A stretch of DNA of 13,571 bases from Microcaldota archaeon (lineage in GTDB: Archaea; Micrarchaeota; Micrarchaeia; Micrarchaeales; Micrarchaeaceae). Numbering within the stretch: the stretch's first letter is position 1; each line of letters starts with the position of its first letter. This document shows positions 2,216 to 5,119 of this stretch, in pieces. The stretch is from positions 1 to 13,571 of the forward strand of contig JAKAXF010000010.1 in NCBI GenBank assembly GCA_021816645.1, read 5' to 3'. The translations under genes and the position numbers were made by a program. The notes beneath the pieces are model-generated. The model did not search any database. It was not told the DNA's origin and saw only the letters and a program-made list of their open reading frames with translations.

Positions 2216-2416
2216 ATGATGATGCCGGTCAGGTGTTTCACGTGCGGTGCCGTGTTGGCTGACAAGTGGGCTGAGTACGACAAGCGCGTGAACAAGGACA
2301 AGGAGGACGCTGGCAAGGTGCTCGACGACCTCGGAGTCAAGAGGTACTGCTGCAGGAGGATGTTCCTGAGCAACGTAGAGCTGATAGATGAATTCATAGA
2401 AATAGGAAGAAAGTGA
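2216..2416 (+). CDS. rpo10: DNA-directed RNA polymerase subunit Rpo10 (subunit N)
   Basis: Small zinc-binding subunit that stabilises the D-L assembly platform of RNA polymerase, homologous to eukaryotic Rpb10. The signature MPVRCFTCG near the N-terminus supplies two cysteines (7 and 10), and RYCCRRM supplies the pair at 45 and 46, forming the CxxC...CC zinc site. The 66-residue length is normal. Three consecutive ATG codons (2216, 2219, 2222) are possible starts; family alignment favours the second or third. It follows S9 by 22 nt. The rpoK gene that usually comes next is missing, and tRNA-Pro begins 9 nt after the stop. Confidence 0.96.
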
Positions 2417-2424
2417 TGCTCAGT

Positions 2425-2518
2425 GGGGCCGTCTGCTAGCTTGGTAGGCTACTGCCTTGGGGTGGCAGCGACCCGAGTTCAAATGGCCGCGCTCGGTCTG
2501 AAAATCTCGGCGGCCCCA
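2425..2518 (+). tRNA. tRNA-Pro(GGG) with a 21-nt intron in the T-loop
   Basis: Acceptor GGGGCCG (2425-2431) pairs with CGGCCCC (2511-2517); discriminator A2518; no encoded CCA. The anticodon stem CTGCC/GGCAG encloses TTGGGGT, giving anticodon GGG (2459-2461). The T-stem CCGAG (2473-2477) pairs with CTCGG (2506-2510), but 21 extra bases interrupt the T-loop between A2483 (position 59) and T2505 (position 60). After removal the loop reads TTCAAAT and the tRNA is 73 nt. The junction forms a complete bulge-helix-bulge (see intron entry), so this is a spliced gene rather than a pseudogene. It lies between rpo10 and S2 on the same strand and is probably cotranscribed with them. Confidence 0.93.
2484..2504 (+). 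other. tRNA-Pro T-loop intron (position 59/60), bulge-helix-bulge type
   Basis: The outer helix is the T-stem. The 4-bp central helix pairs exon TTCA (2478-2481) with intron TGAA (2499-2502). The 3-nt bulges are AA|T (2482-2484) and AA|T (2503-2505), each cut after the second base. The inner helix pairs GGCCG (2485-2489) with CGGTC (2494-2498), including one G-U pair, closed by the loop CGCT. This matches the substrate of the archaeal tRNA splicing endonuclease exactly. Because the base at 2484 and the one at 2505 are both T, the ends could be shifted by one without changing the mature tRNA; the bulge geometry selects 2484-2504. Confidence 0.88.
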
Positions 2519-2540: not shown

Positions 2541-3164
2541 ATGACTGAAGAAGAAAGCTTCATAACGAACAAGGACGACTACCTGAAGATGGGGATGAAC
2601 ATTGCCACGAGGACCAAGAGCCCGGGCATGAAGAAGTTCATATACAAGACCAGGGAGGACGGTCTGTACCTACTGGATCTCAAGACGATAGATGAGAGGC
2701 TGAAGGCGGCCGCGAGTATGATAGCGAGATACGACCCGAAGGATGTGATAGTCACAGCGTCGAGGCTTTACGCGTTGACCGCGGTAGAGAAGTTCACGCA
2801 GATGATAGGGGCCAGGTTCATAAAGGGAAGGGTAGCACCGGGAATATTCACGAATCCGCACAAGGAGGGGTTCACCGAGCCGAAGCTTGTCTTTATAAGC
2901 GACACTAGGAACGAGAAGCAGGCGGTCAGGGAAGCCAGCACGGTCAACATACCCATAATCGCGCTGTGTGATACCGACAACTCAACCAAATTCGTAGACC
3001 TGGTAGTTCCAGTCAACAACAGGGGTAGGAAGGCGCTTGCGTTTACATATTTCCTGCTGACCAGAGAAGTCCTAAAGGCCAGGGGCGATATAAAGAGCAA
3101 CGAGGAATTCAAGGCTACGGAAGAGGAGTTTGAAGCGAAGCTTGAAGACAAGGGCCCACAGTGA
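2541..3164 (+). CDS. rps2: Small-subunit ribosomal protein S2 (uS2)
   Basis: S2 binds the back of the 30S subunit between head and body. Archaeal-type signatures include YLKMGMNIATR near residue 14, GLYLLDLKTIDERL near 41, RFIKGRVAPGIFTNP near 92-106, and IPIIALCDTDNSTKFVDLVVPVNNRGRKAL near 138-167. At 207 residues it has the usual archaeal length; the last 20 or so residues are acidic. The ATG at 2541 is chosen because of the AAGGAGTGA at 2528-2536. It is the last gene of the cluster and converges with the prenyltransferase, 24 nt away. Enolase and rpoK, often found just before S2 in archaea, are not here. Confidence 0.96.
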   Translation: MTEEESFITNKDDYLKMGMNIATRTKSPGMKKFIYKTREDGLYLLDLKTIDERLKAAASMIARYDPKDVIVTASRLYALTAVEKFTQMIGARFIKGRVAPGIFTNPHKEGFTEPKLVFISDTRNEKQAVREASTVNIPIIALCDTDNSTKFVDLVVPVNNRGRKALAFTYFLLTREVLKARGDIKSNEEFKATEEEFEAKLEDKGPQ

Positions 3165-5005: not shown

Positions 5006-5119
5006 CGGGTCTGACGGGATTTTCATAGACCTTGGTATCTTCTCACCAAGAATTTTATTTTGAACCCGCAACCATCTGGTCCGAAGCCAGACGCGCTATC
5101 CAAGTTGCGCCACAGACCC
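5006..5119 (-). tRNA. tRNA-Arg(TCG) with a 39-nt intron in the T-loop
   Basis: On the minus strand, acceptor GGGTCTG (5119-5113) pairs with CAGACCC (5013-5007), with discriminator G (5006) and no encoded CCA. The D-stem is GCGC/GCGC. The anticodon stem TCTGG/CCAGA encloses CTTCGGA, giving anticodon TCG (5084-5082), which reads CGA. The T-stem GCGGG (5069-5065) pairs with CCCGT (5018-5014), but the T-loop is split after TTCAAA (5064-5059) by 39 nt before T60 (5019). The spliced tRNA is 75 nt with a normal TTCAAAT loop. The gene stands alone between the pilin and RNase HII genes. An AT-rich CTATTTCTAT (5152-5143, minus) sits about 28 nt upstream and may be its TATA box. Confidence 0.93.
5020..5058 (-). 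other. tRNA-Arg T-loop intron (position 59/60), bulge-helix-bulge type
   Basis: The T-stem is the outer helix. The central helix pairs exon TTCA (5064-5061) with intron TGAA (5025-5022), identical to the helix in tRNA-Pro. The bulges are AA|A (5060-5058) and AA|T (5021-5019). The inner helix starts with only TA/TA, then an internal loop, then a 6-bp stem CTTGGT/ACCAAG (5050-5045 with 5036-5031) with an 8-nt loop. The inner part is therefore looser than in tRNA-Pro, a relaxed form of the motif. Apart from TGAAAA at the 3' end, the two introns share no obvious sequence. Confidence 0.85.

Follow-up and report, generated by a model that had tools for sequence, protein, structure and literature searches.

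The window analysed here, the whole 13,571-nucleotide stretch of DNA from an ultra-small, uncultured archaeon of the Micrarchaeota, carries at positions 2425-2518 what its sequence identifies as a tRNA-Pro(GGG) gene, interrupted at tRNA position 59/60, within the T-loop, by a 21-nt intron shaped as a bulge-helix-bulge (BHB). An intron at this place had been claimed in a preliminary description of the same DNA, and every part of the BHB named there is found in the sequence. It is very probable that the precursor of this tRNA is cut at the T-loop BHB by an epsilon2-type endonuclease and ligated to restore a normal T-loop. In such a process the T-stem, the TTCA of the T-loop and the TGAA of the intron would form the BHB in the precursor, an endonuclease resembling that of ARMAN-2 would cut each bulge past its second nucleotide, and joining of the ends by a tRNA ligase would yield the T-loop TTCAAAT; both the expression of the gene and the possession of the enzyme are presumed for the window's organism. 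Since introns at 59/60 and cleavage by epsilon2 enzymes have already been published, the intron of the window represents another case of an established type.

Anatomy and detection of the interrupted gene

The motif in the T-arm comprises the 5-bp T-stem as outer helix, a central helix of 4 bp and two 3-nt bulges, and the intron is closed by an inner helix of 5 bp, including one G-U pair (Table 1). Cleavage of a BHB follows nucleotide 2 of every bulge, and the cuts listed are placed by this rule. The acceptor, the anticodon stem and the T-stem are all completely paired. The two tRNA genes at 720-807 and 2425-2518 are embedded in a compact cluster of genes for ribosomal proteins and RNA polymerase, separated by 7-22 nt; given this tight spacing, excision of the tRNAs would break any transcript that these genes may share.

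Table 1. Coordinates of the tRNA-Pro(GGG) gene, its parts and neighbours, and of the tRNA-Arg(TCG) gene in the window
Feature	Position	Strand	Basis or remark
tRNA-Pro(GGG), unspliced	2425..2518	+	cloverleaf by eye; ARAGORN on spliced form
Acceptor, 5' strand	2425-2431	+	
Anticodon GGG	2459..2461	+	ARAGORN, position 35 of spliced form
T-stem, 5' strand CCGAG (outer helix)	2473..2477	+	
T-loop TTCA (central helix, 5' strand)	2478..2481	+	conserved among relatives
5' bulge AAT, predicted cut 2483/2484	2482..2484	+	BHB cut rule
Intron, 21 nt, tRNA position 59/60	2484..2504	+	
Inner helix GGCCG (2485-2489) / CGGTC (2494-2498), loop CGCT (2490-2493)	2485..2498	+	
TGAA (central helix, 3' strand)	2499..2502	+	
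3' bulge AAT, predicted cut 2504/2505	2503..2505	+	BHB cut rule
T-stem, 3' strand CTCGG	2506..2510	+	
RNA polymerase subunit N gene, ends 8 nt upstream of tRNA-Pro	2216..2416	+	PF01194
Ribosomal protein S2 gene, starts 22 nt downstream of tRNA-Pro	2541..3164	+	PF00318
tRNA-Arg(TCG) gene, intron at same T-loop position	5006..5119	-	Rfam sub-threshold, sequence; also in G001 (L032)
tRNA-Arg T-loop intron, 39 nt, TTCA/TGAA, bulges AAA and AAT	5020..5058	-	read from sequence

Following deletion of the 21 nt in silico, ARAGORN calls a 73-nt tRNA-Pro(ggg), while the precursor itself remains uncalled. When applied to the window, ARAGORN reports tRNA-Leu(GAG) alone, and the tRNA-Pro(GGG) is likewise absent from the matches to Rfam RF00005 at E<=1. 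At this threshold Rfam matches three places in the window: the tRNA-Leu, positions 5061-5119 as a tRNA below its cut-off, and a weak similarity to a microRNA, the last of which was taken as chance. The earlier warning that a standard search may miss this tRNA thus holds for both ARAGORN and RF00005 (E<=1). Two common finders thereby overlook a real intron-bearing gene common to an archaeal order, and annotations derived from such finders may wrongly list tRNA-Pro(GGG) as absent.

Folding of the precursor with RNAfold yields a minimum-energy structure (-46.7 kcal/mol) devoid of the 4-bp central helix, whose pair probability is about 0.3; the cloverleaf scores -38.5 kcal/mol with this helix and -38.8 without it. 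The TTCA/TGAA helix satisfies the pairing rules, though it lies outside the best structure, and minimum-energy folding was set aside as proof of the BHB, being not decisive. The agreement of the insert with the motif is rarely matched by shuffling its 21 nt: over 200,000 trials, the central helix paired 4/4 in register in 1.75%, and in combination with an inner helix of at least 5 bp in 0.0115%. Conservation among relatives nevertheless provides a stronger case against chance than these shuffles of a single intron.

Conservation among relatives and competing readings

A DNA search with the window gene matched 117 of 119 genomes, drawn from the window's family and its sister family within the order. 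Of the matching genomes, 88 were sampled, yielding 90 loci, and 29 were left unsampled. The window and 85 relatives (86 of 91 sequences) were parsed as tRNA-Pro, with anticodon GGG in 56 and AGG in 30; the five sequences excluded bear the anticodon CGG (L097, L098, L124, L125, L126). G017, G078 and G087 yielded no Pro(GGG) gene. An intron at 59/60 occurs in 80 of the 86 genes, a frequency that may be overstated by a sample picked for its similarity to the intron-bearing gene of the window. These introns are 11-30 nt long and comprise 67 distinct sequences, yet their central helix pairs 4/4 in 79 of 80, the exception (G027) having 3/4 pairs in that register. Across the 67 distinct introns the mean length of the inner helix is 2.78 bp, versus 0.54 bp when shuffled (sd 0.098; highest of 1000, 0.84). 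The 3' bulge reads AA/T in 68 introns, AG/T in nine, AC/T in two and AT/T in one. Two relatives are intronless at both T-arm sites (G094 and G006; L085, L091), and between the same strands of the T-stem they carry TTCAAAT, exactly the loop that splicing of the window gene is predicted to give. The 86 genes may thus serve as a natural series of substrates, with 0, 1 or 2 T-arm introns and inner helices of 0-9 bp, for the tolerance of the epsilon2 enzyme.

The genomic setting was compared by a search with the S2 protein, which returned 19 loci, the best from Candidatus Micrarchaeota MAG YF1.bin22 (97% identity) and none of the others above 87%. The closest named records thus come from Micrarchaeota, in support of the earlier proposal of a T-loop BHB intron in an ARMAN-like archaeon. 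In 11 of these 19 loci of named relatives, tRNA-Pro(GGG) lies 12-130 nt ahead of rpsB. The nearest genome compared, G001, has 24% of sampled words in common with the window; its tRNA-Pro genes with anticodons CGG and TGG are called, alongside a single match to the Pro(GGG) pattern.

Among other readings, the one that fares best concerns why the intron persists, and is compatible with splicing: its presence may disrupt a T-arm attachment site for viruses or integrating elements. Randau and Soell proposed such disruption for archaeal tRNA introns generally, according to a passage of PMC4090602, and both the position in the T-arm and the rapid change in intron sequence would suit it; for the present gene we regard it as an unlikely though reasonable explanation. 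Far less credible is the retention of the 21 nt in a tRNA that functions with an enlarged T-loop bearing an extra hairpin. Within the predicted fold of the precursor it is indeed the inner hairpin that is stable (pair probability about 0.75-0.85), but in 47 of the 80 introns at 59/60 the inner helix has just 0-2 bp, while the central helix is intact in 79. The absence of the insert from G094 and G006 and the co-variation of exon and intron strands also argue against retention, as does the contact between T-loop and D-loop, which an insert kept in the T-loop would upset. That the gene is dead, broken by a chance insertion, can scarcely be maintained, for although neither ARAGORN nor Rfam calls it, its stems are completely paired, it lies ahead of rpsB in 11 of the 19 loci of named relatives, the nearest genome holds but one match to the Pro(GGG) pattern, and 80 of 86 genes among the relatives are in the same intron state.

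The probable splicing enzyme and a second intron in the T-arm

Removal of the T-loop intron by an epsilon2-type enzyme is consistent with the endonucleases of the lineage. The endonuclease domain PF01974 was detected in 58 of 60 relatives, and the lack of a match in the G001 (92% complete) and G003 (60% complete) assemblies probably reflects assembly gaps. A complete protein of 390 aa from one relative (L056) has as its best solved match 4fz2, the epsilon2 endonuclease of ARMAN-2, aligned end to end with an E value of 2.4e-157, and a 297-aa part of the endonuclease located at a contig end of G002, from the same genus as G001, also matches 4fz2. Parts of PMC12397907 describe Y236, H251 and K282 as catalytic, and Y160 and K161 as belonging to an ARMAN-specific loop. 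Counterparts of these five residues, as well as of R275 and W384, occur in 29 of 29 aligned endonucleases, the positions having been transferred via the printed alignment of L056 with 4fz2, and one of the 30 fetched loci (L048) having been dropped because it had been read in a wrong frame. The traits of the epsilon2 class (three units, ~390 aa, the Tyr-His-Lys triad and the ARMAN-specific loop) are thus present in the relatives, and by sequence the endonucleases examined belong to the ARMAN-2 epsilon2 type, two proteins having been searched by structure match.

The ARMAN-1 and ARMAN-2 system belongs to the same phylum as the window, and the enzyme of the relative resembles 4fz2 along its full length. 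According to portions of PMC4033280, non-canonical introns at a range of tRNA positions are cut by the epsilon2 enzyme of ARMAN, and tRNAs with multiple introns are present in ARMAN-1 and 2. The sites considered here are also familiar: 53/54 and 59/60 are among the known archaeal intron sites in the text seen of PMC4090602, and the T-arm is named as a location of archaeal tRNA introns in that of PMC12397907. Known non-canonical archaeal introns thus share both the positions (59/60, 53/54) and the motif observed here. The rich sources mentioned in the consulted part of PMC4090602 are Crenarchaeota and Nanoarchaeota, whereas here the site spans two families of a single order of Micrarchaeota.

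The 53/54 site is occupied in 32 of the 86 tRNA-Pro genes (L090, L092, L094-L096, L099, L101-L123, L127, L128, L158), of which 28 have introns at both sites and four at 53/54 only; two of the 86 have neither. These introns end in CGGGAA in 29 of 32, and 28 lie 6 exon nucleotides from the 59/60 intron. The four letters before their last two pair 4/4 with the CCCG at the start of the T-stem (CTCG in G015) in 31 of 32, the remaining case (G080) having 3/4 pairs. The 53/54 intron could thus pair with the 5' strand of the T-stem (CCCG/CGGG), and would then compete with the outer helix needed by the 59/60 intron. This arrangement raises the possibility, to which we give somewhat less than even credence, that in this order of Micrarchaeota the tRNA-Pro T-arm forms a hotspot of splicing, where overlapping 53/54 and 59/60 introns surround an exon of 6 nt and are excised one after the other in a set sequence.

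RNAfold predictions for the 28 double genes bear on such an order. The mean pairing probability of the T-stem is 0.39 with the 53/54 intron versus 0.86 without it, rising in 27 of 28, and that of the central helix at 59/60 increases on average from 0.14 to 0.43 upon removal of the 53/54 intron, though it drops in three of 28 (G002, G085, G095). The idea of ordered removal is weakened, however, because the T-stem is predicted despite the 53/54 intron in 11 of the 28 double genes, where its probability already exceeds 0.6. The modelled folding thus leans somewhat towards ordered removal, with mixed results, and stops short of showing an order. Some archaeal tRNA genes need one intron gone before the second BHB forms, as stated in an excerpt of PMC8450103; compared with the close-set introns described there, both introns in the window's relatives sit in one T-arm, 6 nt apart. 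The tRNA-Pro of the window, unlike that of its two-intron relatives, has the 59/60 intron only, a state shared by G001 and G003, while G002, a congener of G001, has two. Nearly identical tRNAs with one and two introns would allow the order of removal to be tested. Among more distant named Micrarchaeota, Fermentimicrarchaeum (L175) and others seem by eye to carry an intron at 53/54 but none at 59/60, together with an apparent extra insert near the anticodon.

T-loop introns in other tRNAs and the AGG anticodon

Three tRNA genes were seen within the window, and a T-loop intron interrupts two of them. The second interrupted gene, a tRNA-Arg(TCG) on the reverse strand (Table 1), is uncalled by ARAGORN and falls slightly below the Rfam cut-off. 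A comparison of the tRNA-Leu with phage records gave no match. In G001, inspection by eye revealed T-loop introns in tRNA-Arg(TCG), tRNA-Arg(CCT), one tRNA-Leu and tRNA-Cys. The TTCA of the T-loop is nearly fixed in tRNAs, and for an insert to be excised it would consequently suffice that it supply TGAA plus two more nucleotides. So low a requirement at 59/60 would explain the occurrence of introns there in several tRNAs, and may be the reason for a hotspot.

The motif GTTCAAAN{2,32}TGAAAATC (GTTCAAA..TGAAAATC) matches in 101 of 118 genomes, as against four for the reversed control and six of 118 when the 3' half of the motif is scrambled. Thirty motif loci were read, all from the sister family, and 28 of them are located in tRNAs with T-stem 5/5 and acceptor 7/7, comprising 11 tRNA-Pro and, by eye, 17 others; of the remaining two, one is truncated where its contig ends and the other matches by chance. 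An exon with TCCA is combined with an intron TGGA in eight tRNAs (12 hits, four of which are not tRNAs), and with an intron TGAA in one (four hits); seven of the eight TCCA/TGGA cases resemble one tRNA-Lys in related genomes, and are thus not independent. The two strands therefore appear, at the level of sequence comparison, to tend to change together at the T-loop site. By eye, the tRNA-Met of G040 (L265) has a T-loop intron in which TCCA/TGGA replaces TTCA/TGAA, and the tRNA-Cys of G001 (L038) has one with TTCG and CGAA on exon and intron, respectively.

The families also differ in the anticodon of this tRNA. The orthologous tRNA-Pro of the sister family (L129-L158) bears AGG in place of GGG: the AGG pattern is found in 71 of 79 genomes of that family and in none of the 85 genomes of the window's family, and the GGG pattern in one of 79 (G129) and 64 of 85, respectively. 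G129 matches both patterns alike, possibly due to contamination. In G040, which consists of a single contig, tRNA-Pro genes with TGG, CGG and AGG are seen, and among the 1034 proline codons of the sampled open frames, 243 are CCC. As reported in a section of PMC6000648, tRNAs with A-starting anticodons are nearly absent from 167 archaeal genomes, and according to the consulted part of PMC8007984 a deaminase specific for A34 has yet to be identified in archaea. A TadA-type deaminase was considered as the partner of A34 and rejected: PF00383, a general deaminase family in which TadA is not distinguished, shows no association with the AGG genomes, being hit in 23 of 46 genomes from the sister family and in 33 of 72 from that of the window. 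A literature search on the AGG tRNA-Pro case found no relevant paper. In the same G040 genome, ARAGORN calls a tRNA-Ile with the anticodon TAT (L182); tRNA-UAU is described as rare in archaea in the portion of PMC6000648 that was seen.
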